Assembly (NCBI RefSeq): GCF_020731415.2
Contig: NZ_CP088273.1
Coordinates: 1,679,001-1,743,000, forward strand
Length of the DNA stretch: 64,000 nucleotides
DNA from: Phyllobacterium sp. T1293
Lineage (GTDB): Bacteria; Pseudomonadota; Alphaproteobacteria; Rhizobiales; Rhizobiaceae
Direction: 5' to 3'
Positions within the stretch are counted from its first letter, which is position 1. Each line of letters opens with the position of its first letter. Below the pieces are notes generated by a model. The model was not told the DNA's origin. It did not search any database and worked only from the letters and a program-made list of their open reading frames with translations. Shown here in pieces: positions 3,633 to 19,197 of the stretch. Position numbers and translations under genes: made by a program.

Positions 3633-3657
3633 AGGCACGGCGCTGCTCCGTTTATAA

Positions 3658-3681
3658 AAATGGCCCCTTGCGGGGCCATTT
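3658..3681 (+). terminator. intrinsic terminator, probably bidirectional
   Basis: A perfect 10-base-pair stem (3658-3667 with 3672-3681) with a four-base loop. A-rich sequence precedes it and T-rich sequence follows, between the lipoprotein gene and the convergent glycine-rich gene. Confidence 0.85.
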
Positions 3682-3700
3682 CTGTCTTATCCGTTTGACC

Positions 3701-4504: not shown

Positions 4505-5276
4505 TACAACCTCCCTACCCATTTTCTTATGTTGTCCAAGCATTAAAACTGAAGCTTAGAATATTTATATATGCATTATTATTTGATATTTTTCAATATA
4601 ATTATTATAACTGTAGTTTACATTTTGTATTTTCAATTTTCTTTTAAATAAAAATCAAACAAAAACCCTTAGCTGCCGAATGCAGATTGCAACAATAAAC
4701 AAAATTTCGTACTTATATCGACAATAGATACTTATGTTATTGCGATCACCTCCTGAATCCGACGCACACCAGAGACTGGCAGTCGCCTTCAGGAAACAGG
4801 TACGAGTTTTTTATTTTCTTAGTTTCATTTATATGGAATTTTCTATTCAAAGCTTTGTTTAACGATAAAACCAATTACGTACATAAAATCGCCGAAAATT
4901 ATATTTGCTTTGAAGACGCGTTACTGCAGCTATATCTTTATATTTCCAGCGGAAGACTTGACCAACAATAACGTCGAACCAGTGCGGTGACGAGGGTGTT
5001 CGCAAAATAGCTTGCTAGGCTCTTTCTGGTCATCACCGGTAAAGAGTAACGATTGCTTGATCTATAACAAAGCAGAACCAGCAATAGTTATGCACACTAC
5101 ATTTGAAATTCTATTTTTAATAAAATCTTCAAGACAATGTAACCAGAGATTAAGCAAGAAGACTGGTGACTATTTGCTAACCAGTTTCTTTAAGTCAGCC
5201 GCAATTGTTGAAAGCCTAAGTTCACGACGGTTCAACGAAACCGCGTCAAACACAACGCTTCAACAGGGATATAAAC
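4505..5276. other. long AT-rich intergenic region upstream of pilin genes
   Basis: 772 bases between the divergent glycine-rich gene and the first Flp pilin. The DNA is clearly more AT-rich than the flanking genes. An open frame at 5012-5311 runs into the pilin gene out of frame, lacks codon bias and is not supported. The region should hold promoters for both flanking genes. No further element was recognised. Confidence 0.5.
5229..5269 (+). repeat. duplicated pilin leader, copy 1
   Basis: About 40 bases directly before the first pilin gene are repeated with few changes at 5519-5557 before the second pilin gene. The tandem duplication therefore took the 5' untranslated leader along with the coding sequence. 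Confidence 0.8.
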
Positions 5277-5456
5277 ATGACAACTCTTTTCACACGTTTT
5301 CTCAAGGATGAGTCCGGCGCAACAGCGATCGAATACGGTCTGATTGCTGCTCTCATCTCCGTCGGTATCATTGCTGGTGCTACTTCGCTCGGTTCCGGCC
5401 TTGGAACACTGTTTACCAACCTCGGCACCAAGCTCAAGGGCGTAACCGTCCAGTAA
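5277..5456 (+). CDS. Flp/Fap-type pilin, copy 1
   Basis: A 59-residue type IVb (Flp) prepilin: a short leader MTTLFTRFLKDESG, the prepilin peptidase site G/ATAIEY with the conserved Glu-Tyr of Flp pilins, and one hydrophobic helix (about residues 20-45) that anchors the subunit and packs the fibre. Flp pili, assembled by Tad/Cpa proteins, mediate surface attachment. No tad/cpa gene lies in this window. A near-identical copy follows 109 bases downstream. It ends with its own terminator. Confidence 0.9.
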   Translation: MTTLFTRFLKDESGATAIEYGLIAALISVGIIAGATSLGSGLGTLFTNLGTKLKGVTVQ

Positions 5457-5466
5457 GCAGGCGCCT

Positions 5467-5493
5467 GGGACTGCCTTTCAACGAGGCAGTCCC
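5467..5493 (+). terminator. terminator after pilin copy 1
   Basis: A perfect 10-base-pair stem (5467-5476 with 5484-5493) with a seven-base loop and a short T-containing tail. It separates the two pilin genes, so each may have its own transcript or be read through partially. Confidence 0.75.
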
Positions 5494-5518
5494 GTTCCTA
5501 TTGAGCATTGTTCTCAAC

Positions 5519-5557
5519 GGTTCAACAACCATGTCAAACGCAACGCTTCAACAGAGA
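5519..5557 (+). repeat. duplicated pilin leader, copy 2
   Basis: Second copy of the leader found at 5229-5269, placed at almost the same distance before the second pilin start codon. It differs by a few substitutions and a two-base length change. Confidence 0.8.
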
Positions 5558-5565
5558 AACAAATT

Positions 5566-5745
5566 ATGACAACTCTTCTCGCACGCTTTCTCAAGGATGA
5601 GTCCGGCGCAACCGCGATCGAATACGGTCTGATTGCTGCCCTGATTTCTGTTGGCATCATTGCAGGCGCTACTTCGCTCGGCTCCGGCCTTGGAACACTG
5701 TTTACCAACCTTGGCACCAAGTTCAATGGCGTAAAGGTTGAATAA
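5566..5745 (+). CDS. Flp/Fap-type pilin, copy 2
   Basis: A 59-residue Flp prepilin that matches copy 1 except at six positions, two in the leader and four near the C-terminus (KFNGVKVE against KLKGVTVQ). The peptidase site G/ATAIEY and the hydrophobic helix are identical. The differences at the exposed C-terminal end could give two fibre surfaces. A tandem duplication is the simplest origin. Confidence 0.9.
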   Translation: MTTLLARFLKDESGATAIEYGLIAALISVGIIAGATSLGSGLGTLFTNLGTKFNGVKVE

Positions 5746-5753
5746 ATATTCAC

Positions 5754-5784
5754 CTTGGGCTGCCTGCCAAGTGGGCAGCCCAAG
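5754..5784 (+). terminator. terminator after pilin copy 2
   Basis: An 11-base-pair perfect stem (5754-5764 with 5774-5784) with a nine-base loop, followed within ten bases by a T-rich stretch. Confidence 0.8.
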
Positions 5785-5912
5785 ACAATATTGTTATTTT
5801 TACTCAAGTATATTGTTTACAGATCAATATTTACAATTGATACAAAATCTTGTTTCGTTTGTCCGTTTTAATTCAGAATAACTCTGAACAAAACCGATTG
5901 GGGGACGGCATC

Positions 5913-6398
5913 ATGATCTTTGGTATGACTTATTATACTTTCTTCCACGTACTTATCAGCCTTATCGGCATCATATCGGGACTTGTTGTTCTCACGGGCC
6001 TGTTCAATTCCGATAGGAAGGATGGCTGGACACTGATCTTTCTCGTTACCACAGTTGCAACCAGCCTGACCGGATTTGGATTTCCCTATAGTGGATTTAC
6101 ACCTGCCATTGGCGTCGGGATCATTTCCATCGTCTTTCTCGCCGCCGCGATTGCAGCGCGCTATCCCTACCGCCTTGTGGGCGCAGCGCGCTGGATTTAT
6201 GTTGTGACTGCAATCATCTCACTTTACCTCAACGTGTTCGTGCTGGTCGCCCAATCCTTTCAGAAGATACCACCACTCAACGCACTCGCCCCTACCGGAA
6301 CGGAGCCACCTTTCGCCATTGCTCAAGGGATTGTGTTTGTTCTGTTCATCATTGCCGGATTTGCATCGCTTCGCCGCTTCCATCCGATTATCCGGTAG
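5913..6398 (+). CDS. conserved integral membrane protein, four helices
   Basis: A 161-residue protein with four predicted membrane helices (about residues 8-28, 38-80 as two segments interrupted by a glycine-rich turn, 92-118 and 133-152). It starts at the ATG at 5913 behind GGGGGACG; the frame is open 21 codons further but without a ribosome site. Small four-helix proteins of this kind are common in rhizobia without known function. No catalytic motif is seen. Confidence 0.65.
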   Translation: MIFGMTYYTFFHVLISLIGIISGLVVLTGLFNSDRKDGWTLIFLVTTVATSLTGFGFPYSGFTPAIGVGIISIVFLAAAIAARYPYRLVGAARWIYVVTAIISLYLNVFVLVAQSFQKIPPLNALAPTGTEPPFAIAQGIVFVLFIIAGFASLRRFHPIIR

Positions 6399-6474
6399 TG
6401 CAAAACTCCCCCAAACGCTCGACAGCGGCATAAAGACCGATTAAATCTTGGCCGCAATTTTGGGGGAGTTCTTT

Positions 6475-6843
6475 ATGAAATCGATCTATCTTTCGGCGGC
6501 GTTTTTGCTCGCCATGCAAACCGTGAGCCACGCACAGCCAATCGACAGCTACACCGCAAGGCTTAGTTCAACCGACCATTTCAATTCCAACGGCCAAAGG
6601 CTGGACAGCGCCGCGGCGATTATCCGTCAGGACCGTGCCAATTATTACGTTTATGGCGATCGGGATGCCGAAGATCACGGGGACAGCTTCTTTCGCAGCA
6701 AAGAAAATCGCGCCCGTCTTGAAAGCATGCTCAATCGTGGCAGATTCACGCCGGGAGCCCGGCGTGCCATCATCAATGGCACACCGCTGATTCATGTCGA
6801 CATCTATGAGGATTACATCGAGGTTGAGGTTGAATCCGATTGA
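6475..6843 (+). CDS. small secreted protein
   Basis: A 122-residue protein with a signal peptide ending VSHAQP (about residue 21) and a strong GGGGGAG ribosome site before the ATG at 6475. The mature part is hydrophilic, with no cysteines and an acidic end (DIYEDYIEVEVESD). Its family is not recognised. It sits 76 bases after the four-helix membrane protein in the same direction and may share a transcript. Confidence 0.65.
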   Translation: MKSIYLSAAFLLAMQTVSHAQPIDSYTARLSSTDHFNSNGQRLDSAAAIIRQDRANYYVYGDRDAEDHGDSFFRSKENRARLESMLNRGRFTPGARRAIINGTPLIHVDIYEDYIEVEVESD

Positions 6844-6891
6844 TTGAACGGTAGCCTGACGGCTCCGGCCCCGTCTTGGTGTAAACCAGTA

Positions 6892-6916
6892 CCGGCATCC
6901 AATGTGCGGGTGCCGG
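6892..6916 (+). terminator. putative terminator
   Basis: A 9-base-pair stem with one G-U pair (6892-6900 with 6908-6916), placed about 50 bases after the secreted-protein gene. The T-run is short. Confidence 0.5.
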
Positions 6917-7094
6917 AATGTTGCTTCAAAAAACTGAAATATTAGCTCTCCCGCACCGCTCGGGACAGTGTTATTATAAGCCTGCTGAATTGTTCTCGAA
7001 TTGCCACGCCGGTCGAACGTGAATTGGTCCTCACCCCGATTGCAGGCTCAAATCCGTTGACTGTTGCTTGGCCCGGCCCATGCAGGAGAAGGCA

Positions 7095-7229
7095 ATGGAT
7101 GAGGACGACGACGAGAGAAGAGAGAAAGATGATTATGCGCCCTATATGACTCCAGTCTGGGGCTATCTCTTTGTTTTTATGATCATTATACCTATTGTTC
7201 TCGTTCTCGGCCGCAAGTTTGGCCGATGA
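7095..7229 (+). CDS. acidic single-span microprotein
   Basis: A 44-residue frame with a very strong AGGAGAAGG ribosome site. The N-terminus is highly acidic (MDEDDDERREKDD), followed by YMTPVWGYLFVF and a hydrophobic segment of about 22 residues, ending in a basic tail (GRKFGR). It should be a single-span inner-membrane protein. A similar plan, including the T-P-x-W motif before the membrane segment, appears in the microprotein at 17592-17720. Its stop is only one base from the stop of the convergent lyase gene. Confidence 0.6.
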   Translation: MDEDDDERREKDDYAPYMTPVWGYLFVFMIIIPIVLVLGRKFGR

Positions 7230-7230
7230 G

Positions 7231-8703
7231 CTACCGCATTTGCAGGCGCTGCACGAGGCGTGAAACATCGTCGCCAAGCGACCGATCTTCTTGCAGGGTC
7301 TCGGAAATGGCGCGAACCAGATCATAGGTCTGGCGCGTGTCGCCACCACAATGATGCCCGGCTCGCAGATCAATCGCCTGTGCTGCCGCCAGCATTTCGC
7401 ACGCCACGACATGGCGCCAAAGATCCAGCATCTCAGCGCATTTTGTCACTGCCAGAAGCGTCTGGGTTGCGTGGTCTTCAACACCTTCCGAAACGGGCAT
7501 GAAATCCAGCAAAACAGGATTGGCCCTGTGGCGGATCGCACCCATGAGGGCCGTAACGGTTTTCTGTAACGGGACAAGCCCTGCCGATGCACCGCCCACG
7601 GGCGAAAGATAGCGTGGCAGGCCATTGCGGCTTGAGCCGGTCAGCTGAATGAACCTGGCAGCACTGGCAAGCGCGGTCTGCGCAACGGCAAGCCCAAGGG
7701 TTTCAAAGGCCAGTGCCAGAGATGGCGTGTGAAAATTGCCTGTTGATAGCACCCTGTTCTCACCAACAATCACCAAGGGATTGTCTGCCGCTGCATTGAG
7801 TTCGATCTCGACCGCTTCCGTAGCCGCTGCGAGGGCCTGTGCCAGCGCACCGTGGATCGACGCGACACAGCGCAGGCTGAGCGGGTCCTGAATGGCGGCT
7901 CGCGCTTCATGCAGCGACGAGCCATCAAGCCGTTTAAGAAGCTTTTCCGCTTCCTGCGCCTGTCCTGCGGCAGGGCGTGCCTGCTGGATGGCTGGCGCGA
8001 GGATCAGCGGATTGCCGCCGAGCCCCTCAAAGCTGAGTGCCGCAGCATCCCGCTGCCACTCAAACAAGGCGGTTGTATCGACAACAGCAAGTGCCCCCTT
8101 GCCGACTGAAACTGCAGAAGCATTGAGCAGCGACAAGCCATCCTTGGGGCCAAGCGTTGAAGGCTCAAGGCCCGCCCTCGATAGGGCTTCTGTGGAGGCA
8201 AGTACCTCGCCTTCATACTCTGCATACCCCTCGCCGATCATGGTCTGCGCGATAGCCGAAAGGAGCACCAGATCACCCGCACCGATGGAACCAATGGATG
8301 GCACCACGGGATGCACTTTGCTGTTCAGGAGTGCCAGCAAATCATTAAAAACATCAGGCGATATGCCGGAGCCGCCAACCGCCAGCATGGACAGCCGGGC
8401 GGCCATCACCGCACGGGTCACATCCCGCGGCAAGGATGGGCCAACACCGACGCCGCGCCCACGCACCAGTTGCTGCTGAAAATGAAACGTTTCATCGCCC
8501 ACTGAAGTTTTCAGATTGGCACCAAGACCGGTATTCAGGCCATAGATTTGTTGCCCAGTTGCCGCCACCTGATCTAGAACGCTTCTCGCTTTTACAAGTT
8601 TGGCCGAAACCTCTGGCGTAGCCTCAACGGCAATGTTCCTGCGCGCCACGGCTTCGATATCGGCAACCGTGACGCCTGTCCCTTGGAGAATGAGCGTGCT
8701 CAT
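7231..8703 (-). CDS. histidine/phenylalanine ammonia-lyase family protein with altered MIO motif
   Basis: A 490-residue protein of the HutH/PAL superfamily, which eliminates an amine from histidine-like or aromatic substrates. Preserved marks are YGLNTGLG (54-61), GPKDGLSLLN (185-194), GNFHTP (322-327), SSRNGLP and EGVEDHATQ (406-413). The motif that forms the MIO electrophile, normally G-S-V-G-A-S-G-D-L, reads GSIGAGDL (138-145): the serine is missing and the loop is one residue shorter. The conserved QDxYSxRC reads QDPLSLRC (272-279), so a catalytic tyrosine is leucine. Classical ammonia-lyase chemistry is therefore unlikely. An elimination that needs no MIO, or a non-enzymatic role, is more likely. 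It is the last gene of a nine-gene operon and overlaps the upstream gene by four bases. Confidence 0.85.
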   Translation of the reverse strand: MSTLILQGTGVTVADIEAVARRNIAVEATPEVSAKLVKARSVLDQVAATGQQIYGLNTGLGANLKTSVGDETFHFQQQLVRGRGVGVGPSLPRDVTRAVMAARLSMLAVGGSGISPDVFNDLLALLNSKVHPVVPSIGSIGAGDLVLLSAIAQTMIGEGYAEYEGEVLASTEALSRAGLEPSTLGPKDGLSLLNASAVSVGKGALAVVDTTALFEWQRDAAALSFEGLGGNPLILAPAIQQARPAAGQAQEAEKLLKRLDGSSLHEARAAIQDPLSLRCVASIHGALAQALAAATEAVEIELNAAADNPLVIVGENRVLSTGNFHTPSLALAFETLGLAVAQTALASAARFIQLTGSSRNGLPRYLSPVGGASAGLVPLQKTVTALMGAIRHRANPVLLDFMPVSEGVEDHATQTLLAVTKCAEMLDLWRHVVACEMLAAAQAIDLRAGHHCGGDTRQTYDLVRAISETLQEDRSLGDDVSRLVQRLQMR

Positions 8704-9719
8704 GCAAACCGCAGCCTTTGGCCGATATTGTTCGCCTTGGCCTTCTCAAGCATGGCATAGCCAAGCGCGATGTCGCTGAGCGAAAGGCCGCGATGCCAGA
8801 ACAGGATTGTCTCGCTATCTTTCTCACGCCCCGTTTTGTGACCCGCAACGATCTGGCCGAGTTCCGCATGCAGCGTCTGTTCGGACAGTTTTCCCGCCTC
8901 GACATGGGCACGTAGCGAGCCAAACTTGCCACCCTTGCACTGCCCCCAATCATCAACCACCAGCTTGTCCATGATGTCGGTGAGTGACACTTCAACAGCG
9001 CTCATGGTCCCGTAAGGCACCACAAAGGCTCCGGGTTTGATCCATTCGGTTTTCAGCATCGGCGTCGGTTCCGGCAGGCGCGATGCCTCAACCACAATAT
9101 CCGCGCCTTCGGCGCAGGCCTGCCAGTTATCGACAACGGTTATTGTCTTGCCGAGATCATTGGAGAGCTTTTCGGCAAAGGCATTGCGGCTTTCCGGGCG
9201 GCGCGAATGCACGCGGATTTCATCGAAATCATAGAGATGATCGAGCAGCCGCACATTCCAGTAGGCGGTGCCGCGCGCGCCGATATGGCCAAGCACTTTT
9301 GAGTTCTTGCGCGCCAGATGTTTGGCACCAAGCGCGGTGATGGCACCGGTGCGCATATCCGTGATAACGGTCGCATCAAGAATGGCTTTCGGTGCGCCGG
9401 TGCGCGGATCGAACAGGTTGAGGACGCCGAATTCAGAAGGGTAGTTCAGCTTGTAGTTGTCAACGAAGTCGCCAACAATCTTTACTCCGGCCAGATTGAG
9501 CGGTGCCACATAGCCGCGCAGCACGTTAAAATGGCCATGAAACGTTTCATCCGGCTCCAGATGCACACGCGGCTCGATCACCGTCTCGCCATTGCCCTGT
9601 GCTTTAAGCGAGGTTTCAATGGCGCTCAGGATTTCCGAATCGGTCAAAGCGAGAGCGTCGATGTCGAAGGCATTCAGATAGTCGATATAGATCGGTTTCA
9701 TACGGTTCTCTCTGCTCAT
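8700..9719 (-). CDS. ornithine cyclodeaminase / mu-crystallin family protein
   Basis: A 339-residue NAD(P)-dependent protein of the OCD/mu-crystallin family. Members include ornithine and lysine cyclodeaminases, ketimine reductases and alanine dehydrogenases. The N-terminal substrate domain is followed by a Rossmann domain with the family sequence DATVITDMRTGAITALGAKHL and the dinucleotide loop VLGHIGARGTA. The loop GHIGARGTA replaces the commoner GxGxQA, so the specificity is uncertain. It starts at an ATG at 9719 that overlaps the upstream stop by four bases; an in-frame ATG six codons on is possible. In this operon it probably reduces an imine or oxidises or deaminates an amino acid produced or used by its neighbours. 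Confidence 0.85.
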   Translation of the reverse strand: MSRENRMKPIYIDYLNAFDIDALALTDSEILSAIETSLKAQGNGETVIEPRVHLEPDETFHGHFNVLRGYVAPLNLAGVKIVGDFVDNYKLNYPSEFGVLNLFDPRTGAPKAILDATVITDMRTGAITALGAKHLARKNSKVLGHIGARGTAYWNVRLLDHLYDFDEIRVHSRRPESRNAFAEKLSNDLGKTITVVDNWQACAEGADIVVEASRLPEPTPMLKTEWIKPGAFVVPYGTMSAVEVSLTDIMDKLVVDDWGQCKGGKFGSLRAHVEAGKLSEQTLHAELGQIVAGHKTGREKDSETILFWHRGLSLSDIALGYAMLEKAKANNIGQRLRFA

Positions 9720-11038
9720 GATAGGCGCGCCGGTTTTTTGACACCCAGATTTTCGCGCAATGTGCGCCCTTCATAATTTTCGCGAAAAAGACCGCGACGG
9801 CGTAGTTCTGGCACCACTAGGGTGCTAAAATCCTGAAGGCCCGTGGGAAACAGTGGCGGCATGACATTGAACCCGTCGGCTGCTCCGCCGCAAAACCGCT
9901 CCTCCAATGCATCGGCAATCTGAACGGGCGTTCCGATCAGTTGCCAGTGGCCGCGCGCACCGGCGAAATGCCGGGCCAATTGGCGGATCGACAGGTTTTC
10001 GCGTTTTCCAAGGTCGATGATCAGCTGCTGTCTGCTCTGGATACCATCGGTTTGCGGCATGTCAGGCAATGGCCCGTCCAGCGGGTGGTTGGACAGGTCT
10101 CTGATACTGAGATAGCTCGCCAACAGCGCCACTCCGACCTGATCGGGGATCAGTTCCTGCAGGGCATCATATTTGGCCCGCGCTTCGCTCTCCGTTTCAC
10201 CGACAATGGGTGAAACACCGGGCATGATCTTGAGATCATCGGCACTCCTGCCAAATTTTGACAGTCGTGCCTTTACATCCGCATAAAAGGCCTGCGCTTC
10301 CTGCAAAGTCTGGGCAGCGGAGAAAACCACATCGGCGGTGCGCGCGGCGAGATCCTTGCCAACATCCGACGCCCCGGCCTGTACCATAACCGGTCTGCCC
10401 TGCGGTGATCTCTGGCTATCAAGCAATCCCTTGACGGTAAAATGAGCGCCGTGATGATCCACCGGATGGAGTTTTGCAGGATCGGCATAGATGCCCTTTG
10501 CACCGTCGAGAATGTAGGCGCCCTCGTCCACACTATCCCAGACCGCAACAGCAGCCTCGGCAAACTCCTCCGCCCGCTCATAGCGCTGGCCATGCGGGCG
10601 CAACCCACTGGAAACGAAATTCTCCGCCTCGAGATCGCTGGCCGAAGTCACCAGATTCCATCCGGCACGGCCACCACTGAGCTGATCGAGTGAAGCAAAT
10701 GTTCGGGCCAGACCGTAGGGCTCGTTGTAGGTAGTCGAAGCGGTGGCAACGAGACCGATATGGGTGGTATTGACCGCAAGCGCCGCCAGCAGGCTGAGCG
10801 GCTCGAAGCTGGTGGAGCGCGCCGCCTGACTGGCTATTTCAGGATTACGCTCGCGGATCGCGGCAGCGTCTTCGATGAACACCATATCGAACTTGGCCCG
10901 CTCGGCCATCTGCGCCAATCCGATGAAATGGCCGATATCAGTACCAGCATTGGCGTGAGCATCGGGATGACGCCACGCGGCGATATGGTGCCCGCCAGCC
11001 ATGAGAAAGGCACCGAGTTTCATCTGCTTCGTGCTCAT
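9716..11038 (-). CDS. FMN-dependent monooxygenase, NtaA/SnaA/DszA family (long form)
   Basis: A 440-residue bacterial luciferase-like monooxygenase. The opening LGAFLMAGGHHIAAWRHPDA and the later SGGRAGWNLVTS, SPQGRPVMVQAG and LVVPELRRRGLF are typical of the NtaA/SnaA/SoxA(DszA) branch, which uses reduced FMN and oxygen to attack C-N or C-S bonds in substrates such as nitrilotriacetate and dibenzothiophene sulfone. These enzymes need a separate flavin reductase, and none is encoded in this operon. An NADPH-dependent FMN reductase gene lies far away at 34.2-34.8 kb. The gene overlaps both neighbours by four bases. The substrate is unknown. Confidence 0.88.
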   Translation of the reverse strand: MSTKQMKLGAFLMAGGHHIAAWRHPDAHANAGTDIGHFIGLAQMAERAKFDMVFIEDAAAIRERNPEIASQAARSTSFEPLSLLAALAVNTTHIGLVATASTTYNEPYGLARTFASLDQLSGGRAGWNLVTSASDLEAENFVSSGLRPHGQRYERAEEFAEAAVAVWDSVDEGAYILDGAKGIYADPAKLHPVDHHGAHFTVKGLLDSQRSPQGRPVMVQAGASDVGKDLAARTADVVFSAAQTLQEAQAFYADVKARLSKFGRSADDLKIMPGVSPIVGETESEARAKYDALQELIPDQVGVALLASYLSIRDLSNHPLDGPLPDMPQTDGIQSRQQLIIDLGKRENLSIRQLARHFAGARGHWQLIGTPVQIADALEERFCGGAADGFNVMPPLFPTGLQDFSTLVVPELRRRGLFRENYEGRTLRENLGVKKPARLS

Positions 11039-12066
11039 GATGCGCGCTCCAGACGATCCGGATGAGCAAGCCCTAGATGGCCACGCAAGGTCATTTCCTC
11101 ATAGGCATTCCGGAAAAGTCCGCGCTGGCGCAATTCGGGTATGACCAGATCAACGAAGCCGGTCACACCTTCGGGGGAAACTGGCGGCAGAATAACAAAG
11201 CCATCAAGATCAGCCGTTTCCGCCAAAGCCTGCATGCGCTCGGCAATCCCGGCAGGTGTGCCAACAATCTCAAGCGCATCGGGAATGGCATTCAGTTCGT
11301 CTGACGATGAATTGCCGACCATAGGGATAATATTCGCCAGAACCCGTACATCTTTCCGGCGACGGCCAAAGGCGGAAAGGCTGCTGTTTAAACGCGCCGA
11401 GAAGGTCTTTACTTCCTCGGATGAGGAAGACGGCAGAAAAACCACATCGGCAAAGCGCGCTGCGATCTCAAATGTACTGGCTGTCAGCACATGGCTGATC
11501 ACGGGCCTGCCTTGCGGCGAACGATTAACGTTCAAAGGTCCGCGAACGGTGAAATGCGCGCCTTTATGATTGAGCACATGCATTTTATCCGGTTCGAAAA
11601 AGCGGCCCAGTGCCTTGTCATAGACAAAGGCATCGTCCGCCCAGCTGTCCCAAAGCCCCGAGACCACATCAAGATATTCCTGATCGCGCTCAAGCTTTTC
11701 CGAGCCCACGACATTCCAGCCGGTACGACCTTTGCTGATCGAATCCAGCGAGGCAAAACGGCGGGCAAGATTATAAGGTTCGTGCTGGTGCGTGGCAGCG
11801 GTGACAATGAAGCCGATCTTGCCCGTTGCCGTTGCAAGAGCCGCGACCAGCGTCGTTGGCTCAAACGGCACCGTGAGAGGCGACATTTCATTTTCGGGTC
11901 TCTGACCAAGGCGATCCGCGAGCAGGACGAAATCCAGCCCGCCCTCTTCGGCCTTTTTCACCTGCGCCGCCAGATGACTAAACTCAAGCGCGCCCCGGGC
12001 GGCGCTGCTTCTGCGCCATGCAGCGGGGTGATGTCCGAACGGGGTCAGCGATAGCCCGATATGCAT
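11035..12066 (-). CDS. FMN-dependent monooxygenase, NtaA/SnaA/DszA family (short form)
   Basis: A 343-residue paralogue of the next gene downstream: FGHHPAAWRR at the start, KGRTGWNVVGS, SPQGRPVISHV and LVIPELRQRGLF at the end. It is about 100 residues shorter, lacking an insertion in the second half of the barrel. The start codon overlaps the last base of the DUF427 stop (TAATG), so translational coupling is likely. Two related but unequal monooxygenases could form a heteromer or act in succession on one substrate. Confidence 0.87.
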   Translation of the reverse strand: MHIGLSLTPFGHHPAAWRRSSAARGALEFSHLAAQVKKAEEGGLDFVLLADRLGQRPENEMSPLTVPFEPTTLVAALATATGKIGFIVTAATHQHEPYNLARRFASLDSISKGRTGWNVVGSEKLERDQEYLDVVSGLWDSWADDAFVYDKALGRFFEPDKMHVLNHKGAHFTVRGPLNVNRSPQGRPVISHVLTASTFEIAARFADVVFLPSSSSEEVKTFSARLNSSLSAFGRRRKDVRVLANIIPMVGNSSSDELNAIPDALEIVGTPAGIAERMQALAETADLDGFVILPPVSPEGVTGFVDLVIPELRQRGLFRNAYEEMTLRGHLGLAHPDRLERAS

Positions 12067-12803
12067 TATTCCGCATCCCCGGCGCTGACGCGGATATTGT
12101 CGATCTTCTCATTGTAGAACGAGATCAATCCCTTGATCCTGCCAGCTTCATAAAGCGGCTCTGGATAGTACCAGACGATATTCTCGTGGCGTTTTCCGTC
12201 GAGTTCGAAATGATAGTAGGAGGCCTTGCCCTTATAGGGGCAATAGCTATGCAGCGGGCTTTGCACCAATGTTCCGGCGATCAGATCCTCCACCGGGAAG
12301 TAATATCGTGTGATAAGACTGGTTTCGAACAGGAAAATCGCACGGTTTGTCCGGGCAACAAGCTTGCCATCCACAAAGACTTCGACAAGGCGCGAACTGT
12401 TGATGGTGTCGATGCGCCAGTGGACATTGCGCGGATGGCCAAAGATTTCCTCATCCTCTTCAAACCAGCGCACCGCACTCCATGCAACGGTTACATAATC
12501 GGCGAGATTGGGCACGCCATCGGGTGCGTTTTCGTAGCTCCATGCGCTGTCTTCACCCGCAAGCGACCAGTAGCGCCTTGGCCCGAGCACCGGTGATGCA
12601 CCGGTCTTTGATGAGGGCTCAAGAGCGTCTTCGCGGAAATCAGATTTCGGCAGGTAGTAAACCGGATGGCCGCCGTTCTCGTAGACGACAATCGCCTTGG
12701 CACTGTCGGCAATCACCTCTTCGCCGAGCTTGAGGCGGATGCGGCGATAGGTCGGCTCAATCAGAATGGCGGGGATTTCATTGGAACGATAGCTGATGGA
12801 CAT
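12066..12803 (-). CDS. DUF427 protein
   Basis: A 245-residue protein with two DUF427 (PF04248) units. The first spans about residues 25-105 (with NGGHPVYYLPKSDF and GPRRYWSL) and the second about 130-225 (with HWRIDTINSSRLVEVFVDG, LFETSLITRYYFP, CPYKGKASYYHFE, WYYPEPL). DUF427 has a small beta-barrel fold of unknown biochemical role and is often found next to oxidoreductases. The ATG at 12803 is preferred over a GTG two codons upstream because GGAGA is better spaced. It is followed by a one-base overlap with a monooxygenase gene. Confidence 0.85.
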   Translation of the reverse strand: MSISYRSNEIPAILIEPTYRRIRLKLGEEVIADSAKAIVVYENGGHPVYYLPKSDFREDALEPSSKTGASPVLGPRRYWSLAGEDSAWSYENAPDGVPNLADYVTVAWSAVRWFEEDEEIFGHPRNVHWRIDTINSSRLVEVFVDGKLVARTNRAIFLFETSLITRYYFPVEDLIAGTLVQSPLHSYCPYKGKASYYHFELDGKRHENIVWYYPEPLYEAGRIKGLISFYNEKIDNIRVSAGDAE

Positions 12804-12859
12804 AAGCACTCTCCAAAGGTGAGTTTCTATCGAGATGTCTGATCGAACGCATAGCGCGA

Positions 12860-13792
12860 TCAGACGGAAAAAATCGCATCGCGGGTCAGTTGGCCCTTCA
12901 CGGCGCCTGATGCATCGGTCACAGCAAGCACGTCGCTATTGGCTGCCACCATCAATGCCAGCGCATCGCGAAGATTGCTTGTTGAAGCAACCATGTGTGC
13001 CCCTTGCCGTGGCTTATCCGTTGTCATGGCATCATCGACAGTAAACAGGCTCAGGCGCTTGATTGCACGGTCTATGCCGACGAAGTTTTCGACAAATGCG
13101 TCAGCCGGATGAGACAGGATGGCATCCGGCGTATCATACTGGACAATCTTGCCGCTTTTCATGAGGGCGATACGGTCGCCCAGACGAATAGCTTCGTCGA
13201 GATCATGCGTCACCAATACGACAGTCTTGCGCACGCGCTGCAATATCTGGCGGAACTCGTCCTGCAAGCGTGCGCGTGCAATCGGATCGATGGCGCCAAA
13301 TGGCTCATCCAACAACAGAACGGGCGGATCAGCCGCCAAGGCGCGCGCCACGCCGATGCGCTGGCGCTGGCCGCCCGATAGCTGGCGCGGATAGCGTTTC
13401 AGCATCTCAGCCGGATCAAGCCCAACGAGATGCAGAAGCTCGTCAGTGCGATTCCTGATCTTGGCGTCGTCCCAGCCGAGAAGCTTTGGCACGGCGGCGA
13501 TATTCTGGGCGATGGTCATATGCGGGAACAGACCTACCTGCTGGATCACATAACCGATATGGCGACGCAGGATCACAGGATCAACCTTGGTAACATCCTC
13601 GCCATTGACAATAATCGTGCCCTCGGTTGGATCGATCAACCGGTTGATCATGCGCATGGTGGTTGTCTTGCCGCAGCCTGATGGGCCGATCAGCGCGACC
13701 GTTGATCCCTCCGGGACAATGAGGCTGAGATCGTCAACTGAAGCTGCACCACCTTCCGTATAGCGCTTGGTGACATGCTGCATATTGATCAT
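12860..13792 (-). CDS. osmoprotectant/quaternary-amine ABC transporter, ATPase (OpuCA/OsmV type)
   Basis: A 310-residue ABC ATPase with Walker A GPSGCGKT (36-43), signature LSGGQRQRIGVARAL, Walker B VLLLDEPFGAID and the switch histidine in VTHDLDEA. The C-terminal extension of about 60 residues fits a CBS module, as in OpuCA, ProV and OsmV, where it senses ionic strength or nucleotide. This type energises uptake of betaines, choline and related cations. Its start overlaps the last base of the permease stop. A 56-base gap separates it from the DUF427 gene. Confidence 0.9.
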   Translation of the reverse strand: MINMQHVTKRYTEGGAASVDDLSLIVPEGSTVALIGPSGCGKTTTMRMINRLIDPTEGTIIVNGEDVTKVDPVILRRHIGYVIQQVGLFPHMTIAQNIAAVPKLLGWDDAKIRNRTDELLHLVGLDPAEMLKRYPRQLSGGQRQRIGVARALAADPPVLLLDEPFGAIDPIARARLQDEFRQILQRVRKTVVLVTHDLDEAIRLGDRIALMKSGKIVQYDTPDAILSHPADAFVENFVGIDRAIKRLSLFTVDDAMTTDKPRQGAHMVASTSNLRDALALMVAANSDVLAVTDASGAVKGQLTRDAIFSV

Positions 13793-14430
13793 CAGGATGT
13801 TCTTTCTGCGAAGAAGAATTTTTCAGCAAAGCCGAGTGTGAATTCCGTGGCCAGTGCCAGCAAGGCGATGGGCACTGCGCCGACCAGAAGCCGCGACATA
13901 TCCATCATGCTGATGCCGACGGCGATAAAATCACCGAGCCCACCGCCGCCAATGAAAGGCGCCAATGTTGCACCGGCAAGCACCTGCACGGCGGCTGTGC
14001 GCGCGCCGGCGAACATGGCGGGGGCAGCCAGCGGAATGCGTATCTTGCGCAAGACCTGCCCCCTGTTCATGCCCATGCCAATGGCCGCTTCCACCGCATC
14101 GGGATCAACATCACGCAGGCCGATAAAGGCGTTGAGCAGAATGGGCGGCAGAGCGAGGATCGTGAGCGCCACGATGGATGGCCACAGGCCAATGCCGAGC
14201 AGCGGCATCATGATGGCAAGAATGGCAAGGCTTGGAATGGTGCGCAGCGCATTGATCGCATTGATGACCGTGAAGGCCAGTCCGCCGCGATTGATGATGA
14301 GAATGGCAAGCGGCAGGCCTATAGCCAGCGCAAACACAAGCGAGACGCCCGACATCACCAGATGCTGGCCAAGCGCCCGCAAAAACTCCGGCTGATTATT
14401 AATGATCCAGTTGAAAGCGGTGATCAGCAT
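13792..14430 (-). CDS. osmoprotectant-type ABC permease 1
   Basis: A 212-residue inner-membrane permease of the ProW/OpuCB/OsmW type. It has five or six predicted helices and the coupling-loop sequence NAFIGLRDVDPDAVEAAIGMGMNRGQVLRKIRIPLA (an EAA-type loop that docks on the ATPase), shown here only to mark its place at about residues 120-155. The ATG at 14430 begins an N-terminal periplasmic segment. The next gene downstream overlaps by one base. Confidence 0.88.
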   Translation of the reverse strand: MLITAFNWIINNQPEFLRALGQHLVMSGVSLVFALAIGLPLAILIINRGGLAFTVINAINALRTIPSLAILAIMMPLLGIGLWPSIVALTILALPPILLNAFIGLRDVDPDAVEAAIGMGMNRGQVLRKIRIPLAAPAMFAGARTAAVQVLAGATLAPFIGGGGLGDFIAVGISMMDMSRLLVGAVPIALLALATEFTLGFAEKFFFAERTS

Positions 14431-14440
14431 TGTCAGCCCC

Positions 14441-15058
14441 TCACCGCCAGCGGACCAGAGCTTTTTCAGCCTGGCTCAAAACAAGATCAAAGAACGTGGC
14501 CATCAGCGCCGTAAGAATACCGCCGACGAGGATTTTTTCCGTATAGCTCTGGTCGATCCCCATGAGGATAATAGTCCCAAGCCCGCCCCCATCGATGAAG
14601 GCGGCAACGGTGGCAATGCCGATGACCGTGACCAAGGCAATGCGAATGCCGGAAACAATAAGCGGCAAGGCCAGCGGCAGTTCAATACGCGCCAGCCGCT
14701 GCCATGCGCTGTAGCCCATGCCGTCAGCAGCATCGAGTACATCGGCGGGGACGCCGCGCAGGCCGGTTACGACATTGCGCAGGAGAATAAGCAGGCAATA
14801 GGAAGAAAGGCCAACCAGCGCCGGCTTGGTGCCAAGACCAAGCCATGGAATGAGCAGCGCAAACAGCGCAAGGCTCGGAATGACGAAGATGATGCCGGTG
14901 ATCGTCAGAACCACCGCGTAAAGGCGCGGACGGCGCGCGCAGATGATCCCAAGGATCAAGGCGATGACCAGCCCGATCAAAACGGATGAAACCGACAACA
15001 TCAGATGCTGCCAGGTTGCCGTGAGTATCTCAGGGATGTTTTTGGGGGCCCAGTTCAA
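14441..15058 (-). CDS. osmoprotectant-type ABC permease 2
   Basis: A 205-residue partner permease of the same ProW/OpuCB type, with the coupling motif ADVLDAADGMGYSAWQRLAR and five or six helices. OpuC-like systems commonly carry two unequal permeases. The predicted start is a TTG at 15058 with GGAA eight bases upstream. No ATG lies in frame before residue 20, where translation would begin inside the first helix. The gap to permease 1 is ten bases. Confidence 0.85.
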   Translation of the reverse strand: MNWAPKNIPEILTATWQHLMLSVSSVLIGLVIALILGIICARRPRLYAVVLTITGIIFVIPSLALFALLIPWLGLGTKPALVGLSSYCLLILLRNVVTGLRGVPADVLDAADGMGYSAWQRLARIELPLALPLIVSGIRIALVTVIGIATVAAFIDGGGLGTIILMGIDQSYTEKILVGGILTALMATFFDLVLSQAEKALVRWR

Positions 15059-15091
15059 ATGCGTCGTTCCATATCGGTCAGAATTGAAACA

Positions 15092-15113
15092 GCGGAGACG
15101 ATCTCATCTCCGC
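15092..15113 (-). promoter_or_regulatory. hairpin between binding-protein and permease genes
   Basis: A 7-base-pair stem (15092-15098 with 15107-15113) with an eight-base loop in the 96-base spacer, the longest in the operon. Such hairpins between a binding-protein gene and its permease genes often stop RNA decay or part of transcription, giving more binding protein than transporter. The role here is inferred from position. Confidence 0.4.
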
Positions 15114-15154
15114 CGCTTCCTGTATATGTGCGTGAAACCCTGTAAGCCCTGATG

Positions 15155-16036
15155 TCAGATGCCCTTTTCCTTCAGGAAGGCTTCGGCAACTTCCTTGGGT
15201 TCCTTCTTGTCGCGTTCAACGGCGGCATTAAGCTCGCGCATGTTTTCATTGTTCAGGAGCGGGCTGACCTTGTTCAGAACTTCCGCGATCTTGGGATTTT
15301 TTGCCAAAGTATCCTGACGCACGACCGGCACGAGATAATAGGGCGGGAACAGGTTCTTATCGTCAGCAAGAACAACCAGCTTGTTGTCGGCAATCTGCCA
15401 ATCGGTGGCAAAACCATAGGACACATCAATGTTCTTGCTGGTCAGCGCGCTGTAGCGAATACCGAGCTTGGCAAAAATGCGGAAATCCTTGAACACGATG
15501 CCATAGGTCTGTTTGAGACCGGGCAAGCCGTCCTTGCGCTCGCCAAACCCGCCTTCCGCACCAAAACTCAGATCTTTGGAAACTGGGCCCAGATCCGTGA
15601 GCGTCTTGAGCTTGTATTTTTCGGCGGTTTCCGGGAGCGTGATGATCGCATAGCCATTGTTGATGTTTGTCGGCTGGAGCAAGGTCAGCTTCAGGTTCTT
15701 CTCGTAGTAGTCCTTGACTTCGCCGTAGATTTTTTCAGCGGAACCCGAAAGATCGCCCTTCACCACGGCGGCAAGCGCTGTGCCTGTATATTCAGGATAA
15801 AGGTCAATTTCGCCATTCAACAGTGCCGAATGGGCGATCAGTGTTGCACCGAGATTGGTACGCCGTTCCACCTCGACGCCAGCCTTTTCCAGAGCCTGCG
15901 CGTAGATTTCAGCGACCACAAACTGTTCGGTAAAATTCTTGCTGCCAATCTTGACGGCTTGCGCAAAGCCCGGCGTTGCCGCTGCCAATGCCAATATTAC
16001 CCCCATCCCCATGGAGGCGACGCTTTTGAAAATCAT
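15155..16036 (-). CDS. substrate-binding protein, OsmF/OpuCC type
   Basis: A 293-residue periplasmic binding protein with a signal peptide ending TPGFAQA (about residue 26). The mature start VKIGSKNFTEQFVVAEI is the hallmark of the OpuAC/OsmF (YehZ) family that binds glycine betaine, choline and similar quaternary amines. GEIDLYPEYTGTAL follows, also typical. Whether the aromatic cage residues for a trimethylammonium head are kept cannot be judged by eye. It is the first gene of the nine-gene operon, so the promoter should lie just above 16036. Confidence 0.9.
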   Translation of the reverse strand: MIFKSVASMGMGVILALAAATPGFAQAVKIGSKNFTEQFVVAEIYAQALEKAGVEVERRTNLGATLIAHSALLNGEIDLYPEYTGTALAAVVKGDLSGSAEKIYGEVKDYYEKNLKLTLLQPTNINNGYAIITLPETAEKYKLKTLTDLGPVSKDLSFGAEGGFGERKDGLPGLKQTYGIVFKDFRIFAKLGIRYSALTSKNIDVSYGFATDWQIADNKLVVLADDKNLFPPYYLVPVVRQDTLAKNPKIAEVLNKVSPLLNNENMRELNAAVERDKKEPKEVAEAFLKEKGI

Positions 16037-16695
16037 GATATACCCTGCGAGCTGACGTAGGATTTAATCTATCCCACTGGTTTCTTTGTTCATTTCGCAT
16101 GCTAGCAATCCGCGGGCGCAAGTTCGTAGAACAAACTCCCAATATTTCCCGATTAAGTAGAATTTATTTACCTGACGATTGCAATCGTCCTGCCACCGAC
16201 AATGAAAATATAACGACAATCTTCTTCGATCAGCGCCGTGGGATCGATACGTCTGGATGGAACAACGCGTTATCAAGCGTGGCCAATTCCCGGCAATCCG
16301 CATGTTTGCTGGCCTGTTGTCCTGAAGGACCATATTGTCCGAACCGCAGTTCTGTGCGTTGGAAAAACCGCGGTAATTCACGCACAATCGGTAAAAACCA
16401 CACTGTCATGAAAGGCTGTATCTATCGGATATCATGTGGTTTTGTGATATTGAGCCGCGTTTACAGCTGTTGCAGCAGCGAGAGCATTGAGAATTACAAC
16501 TAAAGTTCTATTTGATGTCGCTGATTGGCTTTTTTTGGCGGTTATCGTCTTGTGTTCCAGCCCCTCCTCCAATTTGCTGATGAGGAACCTGCGACTGCGC
16601 TGGCAGGTGATATTCGGAAAGGGGCCACCTGAGTGCTTACTCTGTACTTTTTGGAAGACTATCGTAATCCGGGCCATTCAAATCACGAGACCGCA
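16037..16695. other. intergenic region upstream of the nine-gene operon
   Basis: About 660 bases with several short frames on both strands, none with consistent codon bias or a family match. It must contain the promoter of the minus-strand operon. No repressor or activator gene is adjacent, so the regulator of the operon is not obvious. Confidence 0.4.
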
Positions 16696-16887
16696 ATGGC
16701 GACACATCGCCCAGAAAACTCAAAACCAAACACAAAGACCAAGAAAGCCAAACCAGCCAAAGTCGTTGCAAAGACCAACTGGGACCAACTTATCGCCCGG
16801 AGCGTCAAGCTTGAAGACCGGCTTCTGAAAAAGCTGAAGTCGCGCAACATGGTTCGCAAGCTTAAAGTCAAGATGCTGGCCAAATAG
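16696..16887 (+). CDS. small basic protein, 63 residues
   Basis: A highly basic, Lys-rich short protein. The N-terminal half is unstructured and rich in Lys, Thr and Pro. The C-terminal half (NWDQLIARSVKLEDRLLKKL, then a basic tail) looks like a helix. The ATG at 16696 has only a weak ribosome site. A nucleic-acid-binding role would fit the charge but is not shown. It could also be a chance frame. Confidence 0.4.
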   Translation: MATHRPENSKPNTKTKKAKPAKVVAKTNWDQLIARSVKLEDRLLKKLKSRNMVRKLKVKMLAK

Positions 16888-17188
16888 GCATTTCATTGCG
16901 CAGATCGACTGACCACCAAGCCTAAGAAAAGCCGTGGTCAGCACGACTCATTATTATCTCGCAATAACTGATAAGCACTTTAGCATCATAACCCTACGTC
17001 TTAGTGCAATCGTCTTATATATTTTTCTGAGTTCTTCTGATCAATTGTCTGGATGAATCGGCATGAAATGATTGTCGTCAAATACGGCATGCAACATTTC
17101 ACCTTTTATTATTACACAAGTTCTCGTTGCTTATTCGCGCAATAGTTGTATTTATTTTACAAAACAAATATGTGCTCTGGAACTTTCA
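16888..17188. other. AT-rich intergenic stretch
   Basis: Roughly 300 bases of AT-rich DNA with no supported gene and no strong hairpin. Confidence 0.35.
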
Positions 17189-17299
17189 ATGTCTGACGAT
17201 AATAAACAACCCGGCGTATTCGCAGGTTCGTGGCGACTCGCTATTATCATGCTCATTGTTCTGGCGGGAATCTGGATGCTTGGGCGCGCCTTCGCATAA
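17189..17299 (+). CDS. single-span microprotein, 36 residues
   Basis: A 36-residue frame: a short polar N-terminus (MSDDNKQPGVFAGSWR) followed by one hydrophobic segment of about 17 residues ending GRAFA. The ribosome site is weak. Size and layout match the other microproteins in this window. The same frame is open for 39 codons further upstream, but that stretch has no codon bias. Confidence 0.4.
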   Translation: MSDDNKQPGVFAGSWRLAIIMLIVLAGIWMLGRAFA

Positions 17300-17591
17300 C
17301 AACCTAAGGTTGTGCCATTTTGATTTCAACCGACGATCATTTGCCCTGACCACGTATGCGCATCGTACTGGCCGGGACAATGGATATTTACCTACCTCTA
17401 AACGCAACGCGTGAGAGAATCATTGTTCTTAACGCCTCGCCATCACGTTTGTACGGCCTGTTTCAAGGCCCAATTTGCCCTTACAGTCGCTTTTCAGTGC
17501 ATTTTCTGAATTATTTTCATGCACATGCTTTGACATTTTACTTTCATGTTGATGGAATAGGCACCTGCAGACGAATTAGGGGAACATTCGA

Positions 17592-17720
17592 ATGTATGAA
17601 GATGATGAGGAAGAACAGCACCTGCACTATACCACACCGGCGTGGTGTCATCTGCTCGTCTTTGGCTTCGCACTTGCTCTGGCCGTGCTGATTAGCCAGC
17701 TGTGCTCATCCATGGCCTGA
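17592..17720 (+). CDS. acidic single-span microprotein, 42 residues
   Basis: A 42-residue frame starting MYEDDEEEQHLHYTTPAW, followed by a hydrophobic segment of about 20 residues and a short tail with a cysteine. AGGGGA lies about nine bases before the start. The acidic head, the T-P-x-W motif at the membrane boundary and the single span match the microprotein at 7095-7229, so the two look like members of one family. A longer frame in another phase (17356-17691) overlaps it but has no coding character. Confidence 0.55.
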   Translation: MYEDDEEEQHLHYTTPAWCHLLVFGFALALAVLISQLCSSMA

Positions 17721-17798
17721 ATGACCTTCTTTGCTTTCCTGAATTCATAGTTTTGAAGCACCCTTATTCAAGATGATTGAGGCCGCCGAGGCCAACAT

Positions 17799-18080
17799 TC
17801 ATAAATAGGTTTTACCGCTGACTGTCATCAAACTACGGTTGCCAAAATCCAATGGCGGAACGTCCTGATTGCATTGCACCAGCAGACCGTTCAACCATGG
17901 GCTCTCCGATGCGGATTTACCGGCTGAACCAGAACTGTTGAGTTTGATGGATGCAATCAGCCGTGCGTCCTGCTCACTTGATGCCCGCACCCAGCAGGTT
18001 TCGCGTATTTTCGATCTTTCCCAAATCACATGCCCCATAAAATCAACGGACGGCTCCAGTCTGAAAAACCTGTTATTCAT
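17799..18080 (-). CDS. hypothetical protein, 93 residues
   Basis: A soluble, unrecognised protein. The N-terminal half has the character of a small alpha/beta fold (FFRLEPSVDFMGHVIWERSK, then CWVRASSEQDARLIASI), with an alternating strand-helix pattern. The C-terminal part is polar. GGGGACC precedes the ATG at 18080. It is co-directional with the DUF982 gene, 122 bases apart. Confidence 0.5.
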   Translation of the reverse strand: MNNRFFRLEPSVDFMGHVIWERSKIRETCWVRASSEQDARLIASIKLNSSGSAGKSASESPWLNGLLVQCNQDVPPLDFGNRSLMTVSGKTYL

Positions 18081-18202
18081 ATCGTCGAGGTCCCCTTGCC
18101 CGGACAGATACGTTTGAGCGCAAGAAAAAGTTCGATCACAAAGAATTAAAATTGAATTCCAAATTTATGGAACCCGATGATGCAAAGCGCCGTCCGTAGA
18201 TC

Positions 18203-18520
18203 CTACGCGGTGCCAACGGGTTTTTCGGAGGGTTCGGCGGGAATACCGGGTGCAGTGCCAAGCAGCGATCCCGTGCGCTCGGTGACATAAATGCCTGCCT
18301 CACGCGACGCTTCCACAAATGCCGCGCGCGCTTCGTCTGGTGATCGCGTGTCACCCAGAGCATCCCGGCAGGCCTGACAGGCAATAGCGTGTTTTTCACT
18401 CTGCCGCCGTAACCAGGACTGGGTCAGCACCGCCAAAGCATCCTGCACGTTGCGCACAATAAGGATACGTCCGCTGCGAGGTGATTTGATGGTGACATGG
18501 GTAAAGAAATTTGTCTCCAT
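18203..18520 (-). CDS. DUF982 family protein
   Basis: About 105 residues matching DUF982, a family largely restricted to rhizobia: an N-terminal strand region (HVTIKSPRSGRILIVRNVQDAL), then L-T-x-S-W, an A-C-Q-A-C-R-D-A-L helix and the hallmark EARAAFVEASREAGI. The start is uncertain: the ATG at 18520 (METNFF) fits the domain boundary but has a poor ribosome site, and the frame is open to 18664. The function of the family is unknown. Several copies per genome are usual. Confidence 0.7.
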   Translation of the reverse strand: METNFFTHVTIKSPRSGRILIVRNVQDALAVLTQSWLRRQSEKHAIACQACRDALGDTRSPDEARAAFVEASREAGIYVTERTGSLLGTAPGIPAEPSEKPVGTA

Positions 18521-18750
18521 AAGGACCAAATGCATGAGGGAGGAACTGGTTCCACGGATCGTGCAAACAAGGTTGTCTTCGCTGGCGGGCATGATTTGCT
18601 GACAGCGCGCCAGCCACAATTCGTAACAAAAATGGCTCTTCGGTTTCCGCCTCTGAACGCACAATGTTGCGGCCTGCGGTTTGCCGCCAATCGATTGACG
18701 AACTCTCCGGCTTGGCTGAGAGTGGGTCTTTCACGTTGAAAGGGAAGCCA

Positions 18751-18969
18751 ATGGAATATGACAAGGAGACAATCAAGGGCTCGACCGATGGCTATTCGCT
18801 GGGGACAAAATTCGAACTGACCAATGGTCAGGTCTGGGAGCAGACAAGTGATGATGACGAATATGTCCATCAGTTCATGCCTGAAGTATTGCTCGACACG
18901 GCTGAAGGTGTCGGAAAGCTGAAAATCAACGACATGAATGATTGGGTGGAGGTAAAGCGCATCCTTTGA
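18751..18969 (+). CDS. small hypothetical protein, 72 residues
   Basis: A compact, acidic protein (MEYDKETIKGSTDGYSLGTK, then LTNGQVWEQTSDDDEY) that looks like a small beta-strand fold ending in VEVKRIL. AAAGGGAAG lies nine bases before the ATG at 18751, which is why this start is preferred over the open frame from 18664. Short proteins containing L-T-N-G-Q-x-W-E-Q are widespread in bacteria without a known role. There is no signal peptide. Confidence 0.6.
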   Translation: MEYDKETIKGSTDGYSLGTKFELTNGQVWEQTSDDDEYVHQFMPEVLLDTAEGVGKLKINDMNDWVEVKRIL

Positions 18970-19197
18970 TGGTTTATGCCTGACAAGGGGGATGTTGACC
19001 GTCTTTAGTAGGGCATCTTCCGCCGGGCAAAGACGCGTTTGTCAGACAAACCGCGTGAACAGCAATGTTCAGTGATTTTCAGTCACTGCTGATGTGATCA
19101 ATTTGCACTTCAATCAACATCGCTCAATCAGTACCTTTGCGCCATGGCAATGACCGGATGGCCGGGACCATCGGCTTCACCGCAAAGGAACAATAAT

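Follow-up and report, generated by a model that had tools for sequence, protein, structure and literature searches.

A nine-gene operon in Phyllobacterium sp. T1293 joins a quaternary-ammonium importer to a MIO-free lyase predicted to act on betaines

In a 64,000-nucleotide stretch of the Phyllobacterium sp. T1293 genome (the window), nine co-directional open reading frames (ORFs) on the minus strand, at positions 7231–16036, encode an OpuC/ProX-type ATP-binding cassette (ABC) importer, a DUF427 protein, two luciferase-like monooxygenase (LLM) family proteins, an ornithine cyclodeaminase (OCD)/mu-crystallin-family protein and an aromatic amino acid lyase. The ORFs and their profile matches agree with the families named in a preliminary description of this DNA, and the nine-gene set is real and resembles a catabolic operon. 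With moderate confidence, we favor the reading that an aromatic amino-acid betaine is imported and that trimethylamine is eliminated from it without a cofactor. Of a known kind is the pairing of an ergothionase-like betaine lyase with a quaternary-amine importer; new is its combination with an LLM pair, an OCD-family protein and a DUF427 protein, probably directed at another substrate. Titles and abstract openings in the open-access literature yielded no description of such a pathway.

The lyase gene (7231–8703, minus strand; PF00221, 451 bits), previously noted as unusual, does belong to the aromatic amino acid lyase family, and its type can now be narrowed to one free of 4-methylidene-imidazol-5-one (MIO) and ergothionase-like. 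Ergothionase, which has no MIO and releases trimethylamine from its substrate ergothioneine, was the top match of the lyase both among PDB sequences (6s7j, 273.7 bits; next match 249.0) and in Foldseek, with 32–33% identity in structural alignments; a structural comparison with VIA-align did not separate histidine ammonia-lyase (HAL) from ergothionase. The Ala-Ser-Gly MIO triad is one residue short in all 46 lyase rows, in the window lyase in the same column as in the Treponema denticola enzyme; apart from the window lyase, the triad was checked in 40 of the 46 family matches described below. Its remnant is Ala-Gly in the window lyase and, in 6 of the 46 rows, Ser or Thr-Ser without Gly. Because the triad of the window lyase is incomplete, no MIO is expected. 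Tyr53, Lys383 and Glu411 (T. denticola numbering), which we take to be among the essential ergothionase residues, are all kept in the window lyase, as Tyr54, Lys381 and Glu409. Across the MIO-free rows, ergothionase included, Tyr53 and Glu411 are present in 57 of 57 and position 383 is Lys in 55 of 57, as against Val in 5/5 MIO-type HutH proteins; one ORF misaligned at the triad (L131_HutH) was omitted from the residue counts and the tree. Arg57, Lys63 and His83, which the T. denticola ergothionase and the Polaromonas JS666 protein have in common, are replaced in the window lyase by Thr, Leu and Arg. Relatives of the window lyase carry the public labels hutH or histidine ammonia-lyase, and the window lyase scores 384.5 bits against the NCBIfam hutH model TIGR01225, under its cut-off of 539.15. 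The same genome holds a separate hut cluster whose HutH has an intact triad. Canonical histidine degradation is ruled out by that cluster together with the incomplete triad. On a plasmid of Polaromonas (sp. JS666 plasmid 1, L078:7978–13853), a lyase annotated as aromatic amino acid ammonia-lyase keeps Arg57, Lys63 and His83 and is, by these residues, likely a true ergothionase; its neighbors, in the one ergothionase-like locus inspected for them, are a YeiH-family exporter, an OCD and a PhnD-like gene.

The importer comprises, in gene order, an OpuAC-family substrate-binding protein (SBP; 15155–16036; PF04069, 230.6 bits), whose N-terminus resembles a signal peptide by eye, two OpuC-type permeases (14441–15058 and 13792–14430; PF00528, 79.6 and 67.1 bits) and an ATPase of the betaine/proline/choline family (12860–13792; TIGR01186, 332.9 bits, cut-off 326.6), all on the minus strand. 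Judged by its sequence, it is a quaternary-ammonium (OpuC/ProX-type) system. Among PDB entries, the SBP matches choline/nicotine sensor precursors best; ProX and EgtUC score lower. Across the 15 lyase-linked SBPs compared, six residues (K33, Y83, T86, N127, Y129 and R167) never vary, and Y195 is nearly invariant. By motif spacing, the invariant residues correspond to those quoted for EgtUC in PMC9732360, where F293, N339 and Y341 form the cage and K242, T296 and R379 hold the carboxylate. EgtU Gly244, Glu375 and Phe293 are, by the same spacing, replaced by F35, G163 and Y83. Since the cage and carboxylate residues are kept but Gly244 and Glu375 are replaced, the ligand is probably a betaine, held otherwise than in EgtU. 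Ergothioneine uptake via EgtU is disfavored by the residues of both lyase and SBP. A role in osmoprotection only is ruled out, as the enzyme genes overlap or follow the importer genes and the association recurs. The preliminary view that such importers are not normally joined to catabolic enzymes did not hold even within this genome: at L152:9229–15552 (C1:603228–609551 of the window genome), an FA_desaturase gene followed by a PhnD-like gene (PF12974, 38 bits) adjoins two MTTB genes, B12-binding, DUF1638 and homocysteine methyltransferase genes, a dimethylglycine-dehydrogenase-like gene and an OpuAC importer.

The resemblance to ergothionase raises an alternative, that the operon serves ergothioneine or hercynine specifically, through a divergent ergothionase or hercynine lyase whose product would enter the hut pathway or be desulfurized by the LLM pair. 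Besides the closest solved lyase relative being ergothionase, a related lyase set (L131) adjoins hutG, hutI, a HutH-like ORF and hutU, and a HutC-type regulator accompanies the set found in Rhizobium leguminosarum. PDB matches of the longer LLM protein, moreover, include EDTA, dimethyl-sulfide and dibenzothiophene-desulfurizing (DszA) enzymes and YtnJ, the last three of which presumably act on C–S bonds. However, the window lyase has Thr and Leu for Arg57 and Lys63 and Arg for the His83 shared by HAL and ergothionase; the SBP has Phe at the EgtU specificity glycine and Gly at Glu375; and the operon contains no urocanase-like gene, the hut cluster lying elsewhere in the genome. We consider this alternative unlikely, and ergothioneine itself is not favored as the substrate because the ergothionase- and EgtU-specific residues are missing.

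When 394 genomes from the family to which the window belongs were searched with the lyase (E ≤ 1e-80), 42 of them gave 46 matches in all, and neighbors were counted in 40 fetched regions; left out were the window itself, G217:C1:508479, G073:C56, G314:C13, G332:C151 and G160:C27 (later read as L161). Because our gene-caller is simple and can overlook genes or place their starts wrongly (permease 2 and OCD are absent as ORFs in some loci), counts were made by tblastn; the 28% threshold for LLMb, the shorter LLM protein, can also match the longer LLMa, and distinct LLMb-labeled ORFs were seen in several loci. Overall, OCD was found in 34, an OpuC-type SBP in 20, LLMa in 18 and DUF427 in 4 of the 40 regions, and LLMa, OCD and SBP accompanied the lyase together in 16. 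The nine regions whose lyase shares 66% identity or more all retain the four-gene importer, LLMb, LLMa, OCD and lyase, with DUF427 in four. At 57–66% identity, OCD is present in 10/10 regions but LLM and OpuC in 1/10; at 40–57%, OCD is found in 15, SBP in 10 and LLMa in 8 of 17; below 40%, all three are absent from the four regions. The same set is kept in three of three plasmid loci (L003–L005), one of them with DUF427, and the LLM pair with an OpuC importer occurs in two separate lyase clades. Conversely, in a search of 180 genomes, a lyase lies next to 13 of 16 OCD matches, and 8 of 10 LLMa matches of at least 62% identity fall in a lyase region. In the single control region, the canonical hut cluster of the window's genome, no SBP, permease, LLM, DUF427 or OCD was detected at E ≤ 1e-15. 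The lyase of Phyllobacterium sp. OV277 is 94% identical to that of the window, and seven further genomes of the genus hold a lyase match. Outside the window's family the parts are sparse: counting own and family members, among 289 genomes of the class OCD (E ≤ 1e-100) was found in 19 and the lyase (E ≤ 1e-75) in 9; at phylum level, OCD was found in 11 of 349 genomes and the lyase in 8 of 299.

The proposed uptake-plus-breakdown unit for a cationic or zwitterionic nitrogen compound is thus borne out by the conservation of the set in the window's family, with the substrate class refined to a probable betaine. The linkage has exceptions. In G133 and G160, importer, LLMb, LLMa and one further ORF form one run and the lyase lies elsewhere in the genome; and the routine separation of transporter and enzyme genes, which the preliminary description took as an argument against a common unit, is seen in part, since, besides these two genomes, 9/10 lyases at 57–66% identity have neither LLM nor OpuC nearby. 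Because of the split in G133 and G160, we suggest that two modules, importer plus LLM pair and OCD plus lyase, seem to travel together and are joined as one operon in the window's group.

Both proteins first described as flavin monooxygenases belong to the LLM family, but they look like one enzyme rather than two. LLMa (9716–11038, minus strand) is a full-length NtaA/DmoA-family monooxygenase dependent on flavin mononucleotide (FMN; TIGR03860, 548.3 bits); LLMb (11035–12066, minus strand), a short subunit of 343 residues (TIGR03860, 326.9 bits, cut-off 279.7), is its probable partner, and the two genes overlap by 4 bases. The best PDB match of LLMa is 7e36_B, the NtfO2 chain of the NtfO1–NtfO2 heterodimer, and the matches of LLMb include 7e36_A and 7e36_B. 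The overlapping LLM genes stmO1 and stmO2, relatives of NtfO1–NtfO2, are described in PMC8027225 as encoding one heterodimeric hydroxylase. Given this shared layout of overlapping long and short genes, LLMb and LLMa likely form one heterodimeric enzyme. The same genome encodes three flavin reductases.

The partial independence of the importer–LLM run invites a second alternative, in which the importer would bring in a trigonelline-like heteroaromatic quaternary compound and the LLM pair would open its ring, with lyase and OCD acting later on a non-betaine intermediate. In L156 and L159, importer and LLM pair indeed make up a separate run in which LLMa is followed by one more ORF. In L072, the ORF directly after LLMa is weakly 2-keto-4-pentenoate-hydratase-like (75.1 bits, cut-off 350), and by-eye look-alikes stand in L061, L074, L156 and L159; the one in L156 has no Pfam family, and no such gene occurs in the window. 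However, the lyase retains the aromatic-lyase residues and the ergothionase lysine, and lyase and OpuC are linked without LLM in L006, L079 and L131. We regard this alternative as improbable.

The OCD-family protein (8700–9719, minus strand; PF02423, 185.1 bits) fits the family first assigned to it but lacks the cyclodeaminase aspartate. It falls below the cut-off of every one of the 13 NCBIfam models listed. Lys80 and Arg123 are conserved, whereas the site of the aspartate of alanine dehydrogenase (1omo) is occupied by Met239 in 38 and Ser240 in 39 of 40 rows. Ornithine cyclodeaminase identity is ruled out by the missing catalytic aspartate, presumably Asp228 of the Pseudomonas putida enzyme, with the site mapped through 1omo. 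Proteins at least 60% identical occur in alpha- and betaproteobacteria, Streptomyces and Rhodococcus. The OCD protein is also present in hut operons with MIO-type HutH (L082, L087 and, by 79% identity, L132) and in some loci where no lyase is visible. Orthologs of 60–73% identity lie inside or beside hut genes in L082:14019–15867, L132, L125 and L111, where the protein is an unexplained accessory of histidine utilization; in L082 and L132 it is accompanied by a PhnD-like protein. In several of the lyase and hut loci, OCD is followed by such a PhnD-like protein, which lacks an evident signal peptide.

In a third alternative, an opine-like secondary amine would be cleaved oxidatively by an SbnB-like OCD, the lyase eliminating another amine. 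The OCD protein does match the SbnB model (136 bits, cut-off 326.9), and alanine dehydrogenases are likewise among its model and structure matches; in 39 of 39 loci, OCD is more similar to its window counterpart than the lyase is to its own. However, the OpuC cage residues indicate a quaternary ammonium group, and secondary amines are, as a matter of chemistry, poor leaving groups without MIO, which makes this alternative very improbable. Chance proximity of an osmoprotectant importer to an unrelated enzyme set, the separation in G133 and G160 notwithstanding, is already disfavored to the point of being barely credible by the gene overlaps and the recurrence of the set in all nine close regions, all three plasmid loci and, as LLMa, OCD and SBP with the lyase, 16 of 40 regions.

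The remaining gene (12066–12809, minus strand) encodes a two-domain DUF427 protein, which matches PF04248 over two stretches with 165.1 bits (gathering score 22.1). Its predicted model is poor (pLDDT 64.6), the single confident recovery being the known DUF427 structure 3djm. DUF427 is described in PMC4287342 as a beta-tent fold with no function assigned. Relatives occur in 12 plasmid records. As previously described, the gene is a member of this operon, but it is an optional one, present in four of nine close regions and 4/40 overall. From L071:8014 onward, a weak DUF427-like stretch (31% over 104 residues) directly precedes OCD.

Neighbors of related lyases in other genomes offer hints on the products. 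In L144, a lyase relative stands beside an MTTB gene (671.6 bits) and a desaturase-family gene; the window's own genome holds two MTTB genes. In R. leguminosarum (L079), genes for a CoA-transferase, a short-chain dehydrogenase/reductase (SDR), MaoC, a HutC-type regulator, lyase, OpuC SBP, OCD, a PhnD-like protein and OpuC permeases run in one direction, an order as expected if an unsaturated acid were broken down in CoA-dependent fashion. Upstream of the importer in L071 are a p-hydroxycinnamoyl-CoA hydratase/lyase (339.8 bits, cut-off 276), an aldehyde dehydrogenase and an ATP-grasp_5 fragment, presumably as in NDP-forming acyl-CoA synthetases. Because the hydratase/lyase suggests a hydroxycinnamate product, this single locus hints at tyrosine betaine as the substrate of its clade. 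Together, the MTTB, CoA-transferase/SDR/MaoC and p-hydroxycinnamoyl-CoA lyase neighbors would fit trimethylamine and an arylacrylate as products. AMP-forming CoA ligases near related sets in L045, L064, L139 and L156 are common genes and weak product evidence. In L050, L051 and L053, OCD and lyase lie beside desaturase-like, Rieske ferredoxin and PanB-like genes, with PurU in L050; these sets, which we take to resemble the rhizopine moc genes, are possibly another demethylation module.

Based on these results, we propose the following route for the betaine. In the SBP, an aromatic cage would enclose the quaternary ammonium group while Lys, Thr and Arg bind the carboxylate, and the ABC transporter would take the betaine in. 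The MIO-free lyase would then remove the beta proton and expel trimethylamine, giving an aryl-acrylate; since trimethylamine is a good leaving group, no MIO electrophile would be needed. LLMb and LLMa, as a two-subunit FMN monooxygenase served by a flavin reductase encoded elsewhere, might oxidize a product, either at the ring or, by demethylation, the trimethylamine. The OCD-family protein could act as an NAD(P)-dependent oxidoreductase on a linked imine or N-methyl intermediate, and DUF427 as an accessory protein.

In gene order, the intergenic gaps are 96, 10, −1, 50, −1, −4, −4 and −4 bases, the fourth measuring 50 with the upstream GTG start of DUF427 and 56 with its ATG start. Six of eight junctions are tight, five of them overlaps, and two are longer; the preliminary count of seven short junctions contradicted the two exceptions it named itself, although those spacers, 96 and 56 (ATG start), are real. 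Promoter-like sites (9 seen; 6.8 expected, SD 2.6) and terminator-like sites (14 seen; 11.1 expected, SD 3.1) are near chance, and an Rfam scan of 3000–20000 gave no riboswitch or other RNA family at gathering score. GC content is 0.449 at 4001–6000 and 0.467 at 16001–18000, flanking the operon, and 0.55–0.58 inside; from this drop, the operon may be an inserted block. A glycine-rich repetitive protein with GVGVGANVGG-type repeats, secreted-looking by eye and without Pfam match, is encoded at 3701–4543.

If correct, this scheme describes a means, so far overlooked, by which soil bacteria use trimethylated aromatic amino acids as nutrients, and would point to an aerobic origin of soil trimethylamine and to a route of amino-acid betaine breakdown not found described in the literature searched. 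As lyases without the complete HutH-defining triad carry hutH labels, a catabolic ability may be hidden under a wrong name. A 2026 paper describes ergothionase as restricted to few genera, with divergent homologs uncounted (PMC13405746). By sequence search, 42 of the 394 family genomes hold lyase matches of the present kind (E ≤ 1e-80), whatever their substrate may be. A testable substrate class is also offered for a DUF427 protein and the OCD-like family. More tentatively, and with less than even confidence, MIO-free HutH relatives may represent a wide class of lyases that split betaines without a cofactor, with each aromatic ring served by its own clade and often with an OpuC-type importer. 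Combined with OCD and with either an LLM heterodimer or an MTTB system or a desaturase-like oxygenase, such lyases would then constitute undescribed pathways in soil and plant-associated bacteria from tyrosine-, tryptophan- or histidine-betaines to trimethylamine and aryl-acrylates, the LLM pair of the window being a novel FMN-dependent enzyme that acts on the ring or on the amine set free.

Compared with known systems, the window lyase shares with ergothionase (T. denticola, PDB 6s7j/6s7q) the fold, the shortened MIO triad and Tyr53/Lys383/Glu411, but lacks Arg57 and Lys63 and has Arg for His83; with HutH it shares the fold and most active-site positions, but not the complete Ala-Ser-Gly triad. 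The importer resembles EgtU and the OpuC/OsmF/ProX systems in its quaternary ammonium cage, carboxylate residues and four-gene ABC organization; unlike EgtU, it lacks the EgtU specificity residues, and unlike OsmF, it stays below the equivalog cut-off (NF049931, 154.3 bits, curated cut-off 400). The OCD-family protein has the family match, Lys80 and Arg123 in common with archaeal alanine dehydrogenase (1omo) and EutC, but has Met239/Ser240 at the aspartate site of alanine dehydrogenase and stays below the NCBIfam cut-offs. Finally, the LLM pair shares with NtfO1–NtfO2 and StmO1–StmO2 (PDB 7e36) a long NtaA-family protein with a short partner and, as reported for stmO1/stmO2, overlapping genes; those enzymes hydroxylate a polyketide intermediate.

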